Origin: Bacteroidota bacterium
GTDB taxonomy: Bacteria > Bacteroidota > Bacteroidia > Flavobacteriales > Flavobacteriaceae
Assembly (NCBI GenBank): GCA_018335575.1
Contig: JAGXRT010000084.1
Span: forward strand, 1 to 48,485
DNA: 48,485 nt
Direction of reading: 5' to 3'
A program made the translations under genes and the position numbers. Below the pieces are notes generated by a model. The model did no database searches and had not been told where the DNA came from. It saw only the letters and a program-made list of their open reading frames with translations. Every line of letters begins with the position of its first letter. Positions within the stretch are counted from its first letter, which is position 1. This document shows, piece after piece, positions 1,590 to 9,184 of this stretch.

Positions 1590-2186
1590 ATGGAGCAGAC
1601 AATTCTTAAGAAAGCAGCAGAATTATTTATCAAATTTGGTTTTAAAAGTGTTACTATGGATGACATTGCCAACGAATTAACTATCTCAAAAAAAACTATT
1701 TATGTTTATTACGAGAATAAATCAGAATTGGTTGAAGCTGTTGTTAATTACTTTTTTGAAGAGATAACTAAAATAATTCAAGGCATAATTTCTTTAAATT
1801 TAAATGCAATTGAAGAATCATTTAAAATTCATGAAACCGTATCGCAACTTTTTAAAGATGAAAATGAATCTATAGAATATCAATTAAGAAAATATTTTCC
1901 AGAAATTCACGAAAAAAATAATTGCACCAGAACAGATTTATTTCAGCAAACTATTTCCAATAATTTAGAAAAAGGGATTTCTGAGGGGTATTATAGGCCT
2001 TCAATTGATGTTAATTTTACAAGTAAATTTTTTATTGCAACAATAACTTCATTAAAAAATAACGATAACTCAGAATTAGTAGATTATCCAATTACCTACG
2101 CAAAAAATCAATTCTTCGATATTTATTTTAGGGGTATTGTAACAGAAAAAGGATTAGAAATTTTAAAAAAACAATTAAATAAGTAA
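1590..2186 (+). CDS. TetR/AcrR family transcriptional regulator
   Basis: DNA-binding repressor of 198 aa. The N-terminal helix-turn-helix is clear: an AAELFIKFGFKSVTMDDIA-like helix pair, then SKKTIYVYYENKSELV, the classic TetR recognition helix and following segment, at about residues 10-55. The C-terminal ligand-binding half is helical and divergent, as usual. The gene is first in an operon with an RND pump, and its stop overlaps the next start (TAATG). It is therefore probably a local repressor of the pump that responds to an exported toxic compound. An inverted repeat over its promoter supports autoregulation. The ligand cannot be told from sequence. Confidence 0.92.
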   Translation: MEQTILKKAAELFIKFGFKSVTMDDIANELTISKKTIYVYYENKSELVEAVVNYFFEEITKIIQGIISLNLNAIEESFKIHETVSQLFKDENESIEYQLRKYFPEIHEKNNCTRTDLFQQTISNNLEKGISEGYYRPSIDVNFTSKFFIATITSLKNNDNSELVDYPITYAKNQFFDIYFRGIVTEKGLEILKKQLNK

Positions 2187-3538
2187 TGAATTATATGAAA
2201 CAATTAGTTTTAAACATTTTAACTTTTTTGGTAATAACCACAGGATTTGCACAGGAAAGTATTTCATTATCTTTAGAGCAAGCCATCGATTTTTCTTTAA
2301 AAAATAGTTATGCTTCTATCAATGCAAATAGAGATATAGATGCTGCTAAACTTAAAAAATGGGAAACTACAACCATGGGATTGCCTCAAATAAGTGCAGC
2401 TATAGATTATCAAAATTGGTTAAAACAACAAGTGTCATTAATACCCGCAGAATTGTTTGGCGGTGTGTCTGGCGAATTTGCCGAAGTGGCATTTGGCACT
2501 AAACACAACATGAATGCAACCGCAACTTTAAATCAGTTAATTTTTGATGGGTCGTATCTTGTTGGTTTGCAATCTGCAAAAACCTATTTAAAAATTTCTG
2601 AAAACGCTAAAGAAAAAACAGAAATTGGTATTAGAGAAGCCGTTATAAATGCCTATGGAAATGTACTAATTAGCGAAGAAAATGTTTTAATATTAGAAAA
2701 AAACATAGCAACACTTCAAAAAAACTTAAACGAAATTAATGAAATTTACAAAAACGGTTTTACCGAAGAAGAAAGTATAGAGCAGCTTCAACTTACGTTG
2801 GCCAGTGTTAAAAGTCAACTTAGCAAAACAAAAAACTTACGAGACATTGCCTATAAAATGCTGAAAATTACTTTAGGTATAAACATTAACACTTCTATTA
2901 CTTTAACCGATAATCTACATAAATTAACCAAAGAAAATATAGATTTAGGTTTGTTAAATGCCAATTTAAGTATTGACAATCACATTGATTATAAAATTGC
3001 AAAAAACAATGAAAAAGCAAATGAACTCTTAGTTAAACTAGAACAAAGCAGGGCGTTACCTACTCTAAGTAGTTTTGTTAATCTGGGTTATGCTAGTTTT
3101 GGTCAAGAGTTTGACTTCTTTAAAAAAGAACAAAAATGGTTTGATTCATCGTTGATGGGCATTAGCCTTAAAATACCTATTTTTAGCAGTTTAGCACGAA
3201 GCTCTAGAACGCAACAAGCAAAGATTGAATTGGAAAAAGCTAAAACTAATTTAACAGAAATTGAACAAAAACTACAATTACAATTAGCATCATCTAAAAC
3301 CGAATATAATTTTAGTTTAGAAGAATTAGAAACTTCAAAAAAAAATCTTGAATTAGCTGAAAGAATTGAGAAAAAACATCAAATTAAATTCTTCGAAGGA
3401 CTTTCAACCAGCTTTGAGTTATCTGAAGCGCAACGTCAATTATACGCAATGCAACAAAATTATTTACAAAACATGCTTCAAGTAATTGTTACAAAAGCAG
3501 CTTTGGATAAAGCATTAAATACATCAATTAAAAACTAA
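2186..3538 (+). CDS. TolC-family outer membrane efflux protein
   Basis: Outer-membrane channel of a tripartite efflux system, 450 aa. A signal peptide with hydrophobic core ends near residue 23 (GFAQ). The mature protein begins with the typical SLSLEQAIDFSLKNS helix and has two long coiled-coil regions (about residues 140-235 and 335-445) with heptad-like Lys/Glu/Leu patterns, as in TolC trimers. The ATG at 2186 overlaps the tetR stop by one base, and a second ATG at 2195 is an alternative start giving a more standard signal peptide. It is followed by the adaptor and pump genes with short gaps, so it is one operon. Confidence 0.93.
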   Translation: MNYMKQLVLNILTFLVITTGFAQESISLSLEQAIDFSLKNSYASINANRDIDAAKLKKWETTTMGLPQISAAIDYQNWLKQQVSLIPAELFGGVSGEFAEVAFGTKHNMNATATLNQLIFDGSYLVGLQSAKTYLKISENAKEKTEIGIREAVINAYGNVLISEENVLILEKNIATLQKNLNEINEIYKNGFTEEESIEQLQLTLASVKSQLSKTKNLRDIAYKMLKITLGININTSITLTDNLHKLTKENIDLGLLNANLSIDNHIDYKIAKNNEKANELLVKLEQSRALPTLSSFVNLGYASFGQEFDFFKKEQKWFDSSLMGISLKIPIFSSLARSSRTQQAKIELEKAKTNLTEIEQKLQLQLASSKTEYNFSLEELETSKKNLELAERIEKKHQIKFFEGLSTSFELSEAQRQLYAMQQNYLQNMLQVIVTKAALDKALNTSIKN

Positions 3539-3552
3539 ATACACTAGATAAA

Positions 3553-4683
3553 ATGAAAAAAATAGTAATTGTAATTATTGCTGCAATATTTATAGTTTCT
3601 TGCGAAAAAGAAACAAAAACTACCACTGTAAGCGAGTTAAATACTCAAAAAGCAACTTTAATTAGTAAGATAGACAGCTTAAGTAAACAATTAAAGCTTG
3701 TAGAAACACAGCTAAGTAAGTTAGACACTACACAAAAACTACACGCGGTAACATTATTGCCTGTAAAAAAAGAAGTTTTTAAACACTATATAGAAATACA
3801 AGGTGTAGTACAGGCAGATAAGAATATAGAAATACGTCCAGAATTAGGCGGAACGGTAACGACTATTTACGTTAAAGAAGGTCAGCATGTTACTGCAGGT
3901 CAAACTTTAATTCAGTTAGATGATGCTGCTGTAAAAAACAGCATTGCAGAATTAACCACTCAATTAAATTTGGCTAAAACTACATTTGATAGACAAGCTA
4001 GTTTGTGGAATCAAAAAATTGGTTCTGAGATGCAATATTTACAAGCTAAAGCTCAAAAAGAAGGATTAGAAAACAATTTAGCTTCATTAAAAACGCAGGC
4101 TAAAAAAATGAAAATTATTGCTCCATTTTCTGGTATAATCGATGAAATATTTCCAAGAGTTGGAGAATTAACAAGCCCACAAAACGCTACTGTACGACTT
4201 ATAAATTTAAACAATGTATACATTGAAGCAGATGTTACCGAATCGTATTTGCCTGTAGTAAAAAATGGCACAGAAGTAATCTTAAATTTTCCTTCTATTA
4301 ACAAAGAAATTACATCAAAAATAACACAAGTTGGCAATTACATAAATCCAGATAACAGAAGTTTTAAAGTTAGAATTAATATCCCTAATAAAGATCAAAG
4401 TATTAAACCAAATTTGTTAGCTAATTTAAAAATTGTTGATTTTAAATCTGAAGGATTGGTTATTCCATCAACATTGGTTCAAAAAGACCAAACAGGAAAT
4501 GACTATGTTTTTGTTTCTACAACCTCAAACGATGAAACTGTTGTTGTTAAAAAACTTATTAAGGTTTTCAAAGAATACAATCAAGAAGTATTTATTTCAG
4601 AAGGACTTGAGGTAACAGATACTTTAATTGACAGAGGAGCCAGAATTGTAAAAGCAGGTGATGTTGTTAAAATAATCAAGTAA
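3553..4683 (+). CDS. RND efflux periplasmic adaptor (HlyD/MFP family), lipoprotein
   Basis: Membrane-fusion protein that bridges the inner-membrane pump and the TolC-like channel, 376 aa. A lipoprotein signal MKKIVIVIIAAIFIVSC places the lipidated Cys at 17. Next comes a coiled coil (about 25-55). A biotinyl-lipoyl half-motif with GGTVTTIYVKEGQHVTAGQ follows at about 97-117, then a hairpin (about 135-180), the second lipoyl half with IIAPFSGIIDEIFPRVGE, and beta-barrel and membrane-proximal domains. Order and spacing with the flanking genes match an AcrA-type adaptor. Lipidation is normal for such adaptors. Confidence 0.93.
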   Translation: MKKIVIVIIAAIFIVSCEKETKTTTVSELNTQKATLISKIDSLSKQLKLVETQLSKLDTTQKLHAVTLLPVKKEVFKHYIEIQGVVQADKNIEIRPELGGTVTTIYVKEGQHVTAGQTLIQLDDAAVKNSIAELTTQLNLAKTTFDRQASLWNQKIGSEMQYLQAKAQKEGLENNLASLKTQAKKMKIIAPFSGIIDEIFPRVGELTSPQNATVRLINLNNVYIEADVTESYLPVVKNGTEVILNFPSINKEITSKITQVGNYINPDNRSFKVRINIPNKDQSIKPNLLANLKIVDFKSEGLVIPSTLVQKDQTGNDYVFVSTTSNDETVVVKKLIKVFKEYNQEVFISEGLEVTDTLIDRGARIVKAGDVVKIIK

Positions 4684-4714
4684 AATTCTGCCAACTAATT
4701 TAGAAAACATTAAA

Positions 4715-7700
4715 ATGAAAAAAGATTTTAAAATATCTACCTGGTCTATTCACAACAAAATGACAGTGTTTGTGATTATTGCTATGATTTTTATTGCTGG
4801 CATCTTTTCATATACCAGCATGCCACGCGAAGCATTTCCGGAAATTGTTGTGCCCGAAATTTATGTGTCAACACCTTACCCTGGTAATTCTGCTTTAGAC
4901 ATCGAAAAATTAGTTACCAGGCCTTTAGAAAAAGAAATTAACGGAATTTCAGGAGTTGATGAAATTATATCAACTTCTATTGAAGGATTTTCTACTATCC
5001 AAGTAAAATTTGATTTTAGCGTATCTCCAACAGAAGCTTTGCGGAAAGTAAAAGACAAGGTAGATGCAGCTACTTCTGATAAAGATTTTCCTAAAGATTT
5101 GCCTGCTGATCCGCATGTACAAGAGTTAAATTTTGCTGAATTATTACCTATAATGAACATAAATTTATCGGGTGATTTTTCTATGGAAAAACTTAAAGAG
5201 TTTGCCGAATACCTAGAAGAAGAAATCGAAAAAGTACCCGAAATATCAAAAGTTGATATCAGAGGAATACAAGATAAAGAAGTCGAGATTAGTGTTGACT
5301 TGTTTAAAATGGAAACTTCGCAAATTAGCTTTAACGATATTGCTATGGCCATCCAAAATGAAAATATGACAGTTTCGGGAGGCGATTTACTTGAAAATGG
5401 AATAAGAAGAAATGTTAGAATTCTTGGCGAGTTTAAATCTGCTAAAGAAATTGAAAATATCATTGTAAAGCAAGAAAACTACAATATTGTTTACTTAAGA
5501 GATATAGCCGTTGTAAGCTTTAAAGAACAAGAAAAACAAAGTTATGCGCGCGAGTTTTTACATCCTGTTGTAATGTTAGATGTTAAAAAACGTGGAGGAG
5601 AAAATTTAATAAATGCATCAACCCAGATTGATAAAATCATAGCAAAAGCTAAAGCAGAGTTTTTACCTTCTAACTTAAATGTTTCTAAAACCAATGACCA
5701 AACAAACGATACTAAAACCATGGTTGCAGACCTTGAAAACAGTATTATTTTAGGTATTATTTTAGTAGTATTGGTATTACTTTTCTTCCTAGGTATAAGA
5801 AATGCATTATTTGTAGGTATTGCCATTCCCCTATCAATGTTTATGTCGTTTACCATATTAAGCGCTTTTGGAGTAACGTTAAACACCATGGTGCTATTTT
5901 CATTAGTAATTGCATTAGGAATGTTGGTTGACAACGGAATTGTTGTGGTAGAAAACGTATATCGATTGCTCGATGAGGGCTATTCTAAAATCGATGCTGC
6001 AAAATATGGTGTTGGAGAAGTTGCCATGCCAATTATTGCTTCTACAGCAACAACGCTAGCAGCATTTGTGCCGCTAGCATTTTGGCCGGGTATTATGGGA
6101 GAATTTATGCGATACTTACCAATTACATTAATAATTGTATTAAGTTCATCTTTATTTGTTGCCTTACTAATAAACCCAATGTTAACTTCTGTTTATATGA
6201 AAATTAAAGAAGATGAAGTTAACTTTAAAAAGATTGTACTCTACAGCAGTGCAATTTTTGCCGTAGGAGTTCTTTTTATAATTTTTGGATTATCGTCAAA
6301 TTCTAAAGTGTTTAATGCAATTGGATTATTGTTAGTTTTTGCAGGTCTATTAAGAATTATAAACACCAAGTTTTTAAGTCCGGCTACAGCATGGTTTCAA
6401 GAAGTACTGTTACCAAGATTAGAACTCCTTTATGAAAATATATTGATTTACTCCTTAAATGGCAAAAGACCAAGAATGTTTTTCTTTGGAACCTTTGGTT
6501 TACTCCTATTCTCATTTATACTTTTCGGATTATTTCCACCAAAAGTACTATTCTTTCCGGAAACACCGCCTAAGCAGGCTTATGTATACATAGAATATCC
6601 TATCGGTACTGATATCGAAGTAACTAACAAATTATCTATCGAAATTGAAGAAAAAATACAGAATTATTTAAAAAAATATGAAGTTAACGGAAAAAACCAA
6701 ATTTTAACTTCCATTATTGGTCAGGTTGGTGAGGGAACGAGCGATCCTAATCAAGGTCAACAAGGCGGAACAACACCCAATAAAGCACGTATTACAGTAG
6801 ATTTTGTAAAATTTATAGAACGAGGTGATATTAATACAGATGATGTTTTAAAAGAAATTAGAAACTTACTAAGAGACTTTCCAGGTGTAAACATTACTGT
6901 AGACAGACCTGCTGATGGGCCACCAACTGGAGCACCTATAAATATTGAAATTTCTGGCGATGATTATGAAGAATTGCTGACAACTTCCGTAAATATTAAG
7001 CAATTTATTAACGATGCCAACATTCTTGGAATTGAAGAATTAAAATTAGATGTAGAACAAGGAAAGCCTGAATTACCATTTATCATTGACCGTCAAAAAG
7101 CGAGGAGCTTAAATGTTTCCACAGGTCAAATTGGTGATGCTATCAGAACTTCACTTTTTGGAAAAGAAGTTTCTACTTTTAAAGATGGCGAAGACGATTA
7201 TCCTATAAACATCCGTTTGATGGATAAATACAGATACAACAAAGAATCTTTACTTAATCAAAAAATTACTTTTAGAAATGCCAGTAACGGCCAAATTGTA
7301 CAAGTTCCAGTATCAGCAGTTGCTCATACTGAAACTTCATCAACGTTTAGTGCCGTTAAACGTAAAGATCTTAACAGGGTTATTACTGTATTCTCCAATG
7401 TTATAGAAGGCTACAATCCGACTGAAATAAATGATCAGATTAAAAAAGTTTTAGAAACCTATCAATTACCAAAAAATGTTTCCATATCATTTACAGGAGA
7501 ACAAGAAACACAAGCAGAAGAAATGGCGTTTTTAAGTACAGCTTTATTAATTGCAGTATTCCTTATCTTTTTAATATTGGTTGGTCAGTTTAATTCAACT
7601 TCAACACCAATAATTATTTCATTATCGGTACTACTAAGTTTAATTGGGGTTTTACTTGGACTTATCATTTTTAGGATGGATTTTATAGTGATGATGACTA

Positions 7701-8131
7701 TGATTGGGGTAATTTCACTTGCCGGTATTGTAGTAAACAATGCCATCGTTTTAATTGATTACACCAATTTAATTATGCTACGCAAACGGGAAGAACAAGG
7801 CTTGGAAAAAGGTGTTTTAACCAAAGAATTAATTTACGAAAGTATTGTTGAAGGTGGTAAAAAACGTTTACGTCCTGTTTTATTAACGGCTATCACTACA
7901 ATTCTGGGATTATTGCCATTGGCTATAGGAATAAACATCAATTTTATGACCTTATTTACTGAGTTTGACCCTCAGTTTTATATCGGTGGAGAAAATGTTG
8001 CTTTCTGGGGGCCAATGTCTTGGACAATTATATTTGGTTTAACATTTGCAACATTCTTAACACTTATAATTGTTCCGATAATGTACTCTTTGATAAATAA
8101 TATGAAAATAAAATTGAAATTAGTACAGTAA
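4715..8131 (+). CDS. efflux RND transporter permease (AcrB/HAE1-like)
   Basis: Inner-membrane proton-driven drug/toxin exporter of 1138 aa, longer than AcrB (about 1050). It has the first TM near residues 17-35, a porter domain, TM2-6 (about 340-495), a second porter domain, and TM segments near the C-terminus. TM4 reads GMLVDNGIVVVEN (D406, N407), where AcrB has two Asp. TM10 reads VVNNAIVLID, where AcrB has Lys940. Thus only one acidic relay residue of the AcrB set is present at these positions, as in some other RND branches. Two extra hydrophobic segments (about 507-526 and 534-548) lie between TM6 and the linker. Hydrophobic drugs are a likelier substrate class than metals, but the substrate is unknown. 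Confidence 0.93.
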   Translation: MKKDFKISTWSIHNKMTVFVIIAMIFIAGIFSYTSMPREAFPEIVVPEIYVSTPYPGNSALDIEKLVTRPLEKEINGISGVDEIISTSIEGFSTIQVKFDFSVSPTEALRKVKDKVDAATSDKDFPKDLPADPHVQELNFAELLPIMNINLSGDFSMEKLKEFAEYLEEEIEKVPEISKVDIRGIQDKEVEISVDLFKMETSQISFNDIAMAIQNENMTVSGGDLLENGIRRNVRILGEFKSAKEIENIIVKQENYNIVYLRDIAVVSFKEQEKQSYAREFLHPVVMLDVKKRGGENLINASTQIDKIIAKAKAEFLPSNLNVSKTNDQTNDTKTMVADLENSIILGIILVVLVLLFFLGIRNALFVGIAIPLSMFMSFTILSAFGVTLNTMVLFSLVIALGMLVDNGIVVVENVYRLLDEGYSKIDAAKYGVGEVAMPIIASTATTLAAFVPLAFWPGIMGEFMRYLPITLIIVLSSSLFVALLINPMLTSVYMKIKEDEVNFKKIVLYSSAIFAVGVLFIIFGLSSNSKVFNAIGLLLVFAGLLRIINTKFLSPATAWFQEVLLPRLELLYENILIYSLNGKRPRMFFFGTFGLLLFSFILFGLFPPKVLFFPETPPKQAYVYIEYPIGTDIEVTNKLSIEIEEKIQNYLKKYEVNGKNQILTSIIGQVGEGTSDPNQGQQGGTTPNKARITVDFVKFIERGDINTDDVLKEIRNLLRDFPGVNITVDRPADGPPTGAPINIEISGDDYEELLTTSVNIKQFINDANILGIEELKLDVEQGKPELPFIIDRQKARSLNVSTGQIGDAIRTSLFGKEVSTFKDGEDDYPINIRLMDKYRYNKESLLNQKITFRNASNGQIVQVPVSAVAHTETSSTFSAVKRKDLNRVITVFSNVIEGYNPTEINDQIKKVLETYQLPKNVSISFTGEQETQAEEMAFLSTALLIAVFLIFLILVGQFNSTSTPIIISLSVLLSLIGVLLGLIIFRMDFIVMMTMIGVISLAGIVVNNAIVLIDYTNLIMLRKREEQGLEKGVLTKELIYESIVEGGKKRLRPVLLTAITTILGLLPLAIGININFMTLFTEFDPQFYIGGENVAFWGPMSWTIIFGLTFATFLTLIIVPIMYSLINNMKIKLKLVQ

Positions 8132-8700: not shown

Positions 8701-8708
8701 TATATTTG
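8701..8708 (+). promoter_or_regulatory. -7 element for the His/Cys-motif lipoprotein
   Basis: TATATTTG fits TAnnTTTG exactly and lies 21 nt before the ATG at 8730. The -33 region offers only TTTA at 8674-8677 with a 23-nt spacer, so the promoter call is moderate. Confidence 0.4.
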
Positions 8709-8729: not shown

Positions 8730-9143
8730 ATGAAAGCATCTCATTTTTTAGGCTACTGTTTAGCCGTTTCGCTGTTACTTGTATCGTGTAAAAAAGAACA
8801 AGAAAAACAATCAGAATCTTTACCGAATTCTAACACAGAAATTGCTACTGATACAATTCCACAAGGTATTAATACTTCTAAAACCACTAAGTTAAATCCA
8901 CCGCACGGACAACCAGGTCATCGTTGCGATATTGCCGTAGGAGCTCCTTTAAATACGCCTATTAATCCTAGCTCATTATATCAGGAACCTATTATTCCAA
9001 ACACACCTAAAACTCAGGTACAGCAACAGCAATCCAATCCGGTAACAACCCCAAATACACCTAGGCCTAAAATTAATCCTCCACACGGACAACCGCACCA
9101 CGATTGTAAAATACAAGTAGGAGACCCATTGCCAGATGCATAA
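8730..9143 (+). CDS. lipoprotein with duplicated NPPHGQPxHxC motif
   Basis: No characterised family is recognised, though short proteins with this kind of motif occur in Bacteroidota. The 137-aa product has a lipoprotein signal with Cys20 (LLLVSC), then a disordered Ser/Thr/Pro/Gln-rich mature chain. Two copies of the motif NPPHGQPxHxCxIxVGxPL occur at residues 56-74 and 116-134, the second ending three residues from the C-terminus. Each copy has two His and one Cys in fixed spacing, the second with an extra adjacent His, which suggests metal binding, heme contact or a disulfide. That is inference. It is convergent with the peptidase operon and shares a terminator with it. Confidence 0.85.
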   Translation: MKASHFLGYCLAVSLLLVSCKKEQEKQSESLPNSNTEIATDTIPQGINTSKTTKLNPPHGQPGHRCDIAVGAPLNTPINPSSLYQEPIIPNTPKTQVQQQQSNPVTTPNTPRPKINPPHGQPHHDCKIQVGDPLPDA

Positions 9144-9152
9144 TTATAGAAT

Positions 9153-9184
9153 AAAAAAAAAAGGCGCTTAAAGCGCCTTTTTTT
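9153..9184. terminator. bidirectional intrinsic terminator
   Basis: GGCGC (9163-9167) pairs with GCGCC (9173-9177) around TTAAA, flanked by an A-tract (9153-9162) and a T-tract (9178-9184). It can end transcripts from both the plus-strand lipoprotein gene and the minus-strand peptidase operon. Confidence 0.88.

Follow-up and report, generated by a model that had tools for sequence, protein, structure and literature searches.

A tandem His-His-Cys motif defines an unnamed family of small envelope proteins in Bacteroidota, with a possible role in soft-metal handling

What does a small bacterial lipoprotein do with two copies of one 19-residue motif in which His and Cys hold fixed places? The question is raised by an open reading frame at 8730–9143 (+) of the window (the whole stretch of DNA analysed, 48,485 nucleotides from a member of Flavobacteriaceae), which has an ATG start, 137 codons and a TAA stop and encodes a protein of 137 aa with a hydrophobic N-terminus. 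By pattern, this N-terminus is a signal peptide (8730–8789) with the lipobox LVSC at residues 17–20, the mark of a bacterial lipoprotein, and Cys20 (codon 8787–8789) is the predicted site of lipidation. The first motif copy, NPPHGQPGHRCDIAVGAPL, occupies 8895–8951 and starts at residue 56; the second, NPPHGQPHHDCKIQVGDPL, occupies 9075–9131 and starts at residue 116, and the protein terminates six residues past the VG of this copy. The linker between them (8952–9074) is rich in Pro, Gln, Thr and Asn. The gene begins 64 bases past recX and may form its own transcription unit: upstream, TATATTTG at 8701–8708 fits TAnnTTTG and is a weak candidate for a promoter element, resembling what we take to be the -7 element of Bacteroidota promoters, and just past the stop codon, at about 9156–9184, there is a hairpin followed by a T run that looks like an intrinsic terminator (-16.7 kcal/mol, z -4.8).

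The duplication proposed for this protein in the earlier note is real. The two copies share 14 of 19 residues, and the chain has no better self-match; when the part beyond residue 20 was shuffled 300 times, the match reached at most 9/19 (mean 6.1), which rules out a chance repeat. "Near-identical" is nevertheless a little strong a term for such a match. At the DNA level only 37 of 57 bases are identical (20 differ), and the 13 changed codons comprise eight synonymous and five non-synonymous changes. A recent DNA duplication is thereby ruled out, and we regard the copies as an old duplication that has been maintained at the protein level. Comparison with a congener (locus L012) revealed 11 synonymous changes and one non-synonymous change in copy 1, and five synonymous and eight non-synonymous changes in copy 2; constraint is thus clear for copy 1 and weaker for copy 2 outside its core. 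A pattern search of the window's genome matched only the two copies in this gene.

Searches of domain and structure databases name no known relative, as the earlier note had anticipated. Pfam returned no family for the window protein at E-values up to 10, including the HMA domain (PF00403). NCBIfam returned five families, all far below their cut-offs, the best three of which align N-terminal to the motif cores; HYC_CC_PP (NF047658, cut-off 28 bits) was not among these matches. A phmmer search of the PDB gave no hit, the sole match of the motif profile was a zinc finger (E-value 5.7 over 9 residues), and tblastn against plasmids and phages gave no match. Heme binding, which had also been suggested, finds nothing to support it, and a c-type cytochrome is ruled out, as the CXXCH heme site is absent from the window protein. 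Neither searches with letter variants of the motif in open-licence PubMed Central papers nor the literature on HYC_CC_PP, copper, TonB receptors and Bacteroidetes yielded a description of the motif family, which we thus found without prior description in these papers, Pfam or NCBIfam.

The AlphaFold2 model of the window protein, calculated with 19 relatives, has a mean pLDDT of 66.5 and a pTM of 0.26. Ten-residue blocks across the motifs reach pLDDT 75–92, and most linker blocks remain below 50. The chain had been described as otherwise disordered: this agrees with pLDDT values below 50 at residues 24–31, 33–50 and 83–103, but the motifs themselves are predicted to be ordered. The model contains isolated bridge residues at 55/73 and 115/133. 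In a three-copy relative (mean pLDDT 62.6, pTM 0.25, motif blocks 67–89) they occur at 73/91, 147/165 and 200/218, with one more pair in a linker; the spacing of 18 residues is thus seen in all five motifs of the two modelled proteins. We read the two residues of each pair as bridging each other, which would make every motif a closed loop. Since the pTM values are low, no fixed arrangement of the loops relative to one another is predicted. AlphaFold2 does not model metals. A Foldseek search of the PDB with the window model gave no match at E-values up to 10, for which loops of this size may be too small to detect.

A search for the motif across Bacteroidota, noting copy number and neighbours as the earlier note had suggested, revealed that it defines an unnamed family of small envelope proteins. 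Our local profile search of 252 loci recovered 128 distinct proteins with 306 motif copies: 76 proteins have two copies, 51 have three and one has a single copy, i.e. two or three in 127/128. The single-copy protein falls short of the length of its three-copy relatives and seems to be truncated. Loci L222 and L246, with one copy left against three in relatives, are a case of natural decay. Both His residues (positions 8 and 13 of the profile) and the Gly between them are present in 306/306 copies, Cys15 in 304/306 and the Pro between the His residues in 292/306, although part of this conservation is selected by the search, as the loci were gathered with the motif itself. The two copies lacking Cys are the first copy of L063, decayed at several positions, and the third copy of L199, in which a stop codon precedes the Cys, another case of natural decay. 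Gly, Asn, Pro, Val and Leu of the motif are about as conserved as His and Cys. The motif profile (A1) matched 22 of 296 genomes across the phylum, in every case with two or three copies sharing a single open frame; the lack of weak matches in this search suggests that the search bias is not large. The same profile matched 45/120 genomes of a sister family (f2) and 15/120 genomes of the family of locus L043, which we call the Prolixibacteraceae-type group after the titles of several relatives. In the window's own family (f1) a strict DNA pattern, which may overlook members, matched 21 of 199 genomes; one match (G133, locus L022) proved to be due to chance, hence 20/199 are counted. With the window protein as query we found 40 loci in GTDB contigs, with titles including Flavobacterium, Capnocytophaga, Pedobacter, Sediminibacterium, Ferruginibacter, Draconibacterium and Prolixibacteraceae. 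Even two loci of genus g353 with weak second copies (25–29 bits) keep the two His and the Cys. The prediction that the fixed His and Cys would be kept in homologs is therefore borne out, and the near-invariant triad, the constraint on copy 1 and the lack of a matching catalogued domain agree with the idea of a functional unit. The linker of one family member (L050: 5812–6360, +) holds a stretch, HEDHTGHDHG, of the His-rich kind often seen in metal-binding proteins. In eight contig loci the motif gene is immediately preceded by a gene for a protein of ~1135 aa (L031: 2525–5932, +) that has no Pfam match above cut-off.

How the protein is held in the envelope varies. A lipobox-like site precedes the motifs in 121/128 proteins, an upper estimate based on a simple pattern in stop-to-stop frames, and was found by pattern or by eye in 74 of the 79 loci that we read individually. 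The remaining loci have, by eye, a transmembrane-looking N-terminus (L106, L108 and L140; 3/79) or a plain signal peptide without the lipobox Cys (L051 and L064; 2/79). Judging from these N-termini, what all the anchors have in common is a location outside the cytoplasm. Of the proposed "surface or periplasmic" location, the extracytoplasmic part thus stands, but exposure on the surface is not required. The surface export signal LES of Bacteroidota lipoproteins is described in PMC5080379 as minimally K-(D/E)2 just past the lipobox Cys; it is absent from the window protein, which reads CKKEQE from the lipobox Cys onwards, and a simple LES pattern is found in 19 of the 121 relatives with a lipobox-like site.

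Upstream of the window gene, at 1590–8131 (+), there are genes for a TetR regulator, an OEP protein, a HlyD/CusB-type fusion protein and an AcrB-type RND pump, followed by recX; downstream, on the opposite strand, there are genes for an M13 peptidase, an S9 peptidase and a SnoaL-like protein. Locus L110 from a congener shares the pump, recX and the downstream genes by clustering. The pump is of the AcrB type according to Pfam and scores 304.5 bits against a CusA/CzcA cut-off of 701.45, so the window itself gives no pointer to metals. Neighbours vary within f1 and include, among the scanned loci, a DUF1028 gene (L107) and an ArsR-type HTH gene directly upstream (L106), and no HMA-like gene was detected within 3 kb in any of 32 loci from 19 genera (one of which, L111, is only 3.2 kb long). 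Any metal-related reading of the window copy therefore rests on homology. The presence of HYC_CC_PP is uninformative in f1, as it occurs in 19/20 motif-bearing and 159/179 other genomes.

In the sister family f2 the picture is different. Of its 45 loci, 36 (8/11 genera) have an HMA-type gene no more than 3 kb from the motif gene, and the next four 1.5-kb bins contain HMA-like genes in 0, 1, 2 and 0 loci; the nine loci of genera g337, g345 and g353 show no such linkage. As HMA-like genes were detected with regular expressions, the 36 matches were cross-read against the neighbour tables. The usual f2 set consists of the motif gene, a gene for a secreted, Cys-rich protein whose C-terminus is IWQPPK, and a gene for a receptor of ~890 residues, which in the scanned locus L121 combines a TonB barrel with an HMA domain; the HMA part of this receptor scores against models of the copper chaperone CopZ, under their cut-offs. 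The motif gene comes last in the cluster in 9/11 loci of g201 and 4/4 of g335, and first elsewhere in f2. The Cys-rich partner (at least 100 bits) occurs in 41/45 motif-bearing and 15/75 motif-lacking f2 genomes (8 of the 15 in g335), a difference inflated by relatedness and by the fact that the profile was built from motif-linked copies. At E-values up to 0.001 this profile matches 92/120 f2 genomes, and the Cys-rich protein of L131 (9328–9624, -), which adjoins the HMA-TonB receptor, has no match in Pfam or NCBIfam.

The Prolixibacteraceae-type group has an assembly of its own, seen in three of its 15 loci (L250–L252), where genes for a Cys-rich protein, an HMA protein and an RND pump come after the motif gene. 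In L043, model scores exceed the cut-offs for HYC_CC_PP (65.7 bits; cut-off 28), HMA (31.5; 24.8) and CusA/CzcA (762.3; 701.45). HMA-like matches are also seen at 7.5–9 kb in 4/15 loci, three of which belong to the same metal clusters. Among the 40 contig loci only L043, L047 and L054, from the same genomes as the 3/15, have an HMA-like gene at a distance of up to 3 kb; a laxer frame length gave false matches, by eye, in 3/15 and 3/40 loci. Across 79 loci, only nine (L043, L047, L054, L121, L131, L132, L135, L136 and L137) have an HMA-like gene within 1.5 kb, so the linkage characterizes certain groups and not the motif family as a whole. Two pattern matches in L129, at 0.7 and 2.1 kb, were not HMA-like by eye and were lost with a stricter pattern. 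Because loci in one family share ancestry, the 36 f2 loci do not represent 36 events, and the f2 linkage may be an inherited chromosomal block. We count two separate HMA assemblies, one in f2 and one in the Prolixibacteraceae-type group, and one change of gene order within f2 that kept the partners together.

From these data we favour, with a probability of about 0.45, the interpretation that the motif protein is an envelope-tethered chaperone or buffer for a soft metal, probably copper. The lipoprotein would resemble beads on a string, with two or three similar closed loops of the approximate consensus NP[PA]HG[QE]PxH[RD]C[DE][IL]xVG[AS]PL joined by a disordered tether. The two His and one Cys that a loop displays (H-x4-H-x-C) would bind a soft metal ion, for which Cu(I) is the most likely candidate, and with several such loops flexibly tethered, the metal could be shared among them or handed over. 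In the periplasm such a protein might serve outer-membrane uptake where an HMA-TonB receptor is its neighbour, and efflux where it neighbours a Cus/Czc-type RND pump; the window copy would have the same role by homology. A soft-metal site is the plainest reading because two His and one Cys are placed in a tight extracytoplasmic loop and genes for handling soft metals adjoin it where linkage exists. Copper is the first choice because it is often the metal handled by HMA proteins and Cus pumps and because of the CopZ scores of the L121 receptor. The presence of two or three loops in almost all members suggests joint action. As to the earlier suggestion of metal binding, the gene neighbourhoods in two other groups speak for it, if indirectly, but the window's own family does not. 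Counting against the metal reading are the 0/32 result, the scarce linkage among the contig loci, the nine unlinked f2 loci, the HMA-like matches at 7.5–9 kb, the uninformative HYC_CC_PP distribution, the sub-cut-off pump and the equal invariance of Gly, Asn, Pro and Val.

The last of these points would also be expected of a docking motif. The loop could be a module for binding a protein partner in the envelope, with the copies giving avidity and with His and Cys in the binding face or holding the loop; this we consider rather unlikely, even though the prediction of folded loops along a disordered chain, conservation of Leu as well as of the residues just named, varied neighbourhoods and the lack of HMA linkage in f1 are all in keeping with it. 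No partner gene is common to the neighbourhoods, and docking would leave the HMA linkage in two groups unexplained. The Cys might instead act in the envelope as a sensor or as a carrier in redox or sulfur (persulfide) chemistry, its reactivity tuned by the His residues. Genes that fit such a role include those for Rhodanese-ArsR, DsrE and DUF302 proteins upstream in L043 and, by eye, thioredoxin-like genes adjoining the motif gene in L041, L052 and L241, a rhodanese-like one in L244 and MsrB-like ones close to many f2 loci, but such genes accompany only a part of the loci, and most were identified by eye. Moreover, each loop has one Cys and an invariant pair of His, an unusual combination for a pure thiol carrier, and we judge this alternative to be distinctly unlikely.

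If the ligand is a soft metal(loid) other than copper, arsenic comes to mind, since ArsR-type, arsenate-reductase-like (under the NCBIfam cut-off and over that of Pfam) and ACR3-type genes adjoin the motif gene in L048 and L065. These are few loci, and the HMA and CusA/CzcA neighbours indicate metal cations, which makes arsenic improbable. That the repeat is a low-complexity stretch without function, as the low-complexity linkers might suggest, is scarcely credible: it is contradicted by the shuffling test, the synonymous changes and the near-invariant core in 306 copies.

Should the copper reading hold, a widespread unnamed lipoprotein family of Bacteroidota would gain a role in the handling of metals in the envelope that experiments can test, and peptides could be used to study a repeated His/Cys loop of very small size. 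A bolder version, which we consider possible if doubtful, is that the 19-residue His-His-Cys tandem loop is a new minimal metal site and the protein a periplasmic copper carrier of Bacteroidota that replaces the CusF, CueP and Csp1 types. The account of copper genes in one flavobacterium in PMC11213822 reports no CusF, CueP or Csp1 by BLAST, and a phylum-specific carrier would fill this gap, at least in that organism. Even if metal binding fails, the near-invariant signature and the strict multiplicity demand an explanation.

Among known systems, the window protein shares with the LES-bearing outer-membrane lipoproteins of PMC5080379 the lipobox and the charged residues after the Cys, but it lacks K-(D/E)2, and some of its relatives are not lipoproteins. 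HYC_CC_PP (NF047658) is likewise a small secreted Bacteroidota protein with Cys and His, and its gene adjoins the motif gene in L043 (scanned) and in L047 and L054 (by clustering), but the window protein does not match its model. The HMA domain (PF00403) and copper chaperones of the CopZ and CusF types are small metal-carrying modules, as we propose for the motif, and HMA genes adjoin the motif gene in two groups; in contrast to them, the motif protein has neither the HMA fold nor CXXC and would rely on 24-residue loops, each with two His and one Cys.
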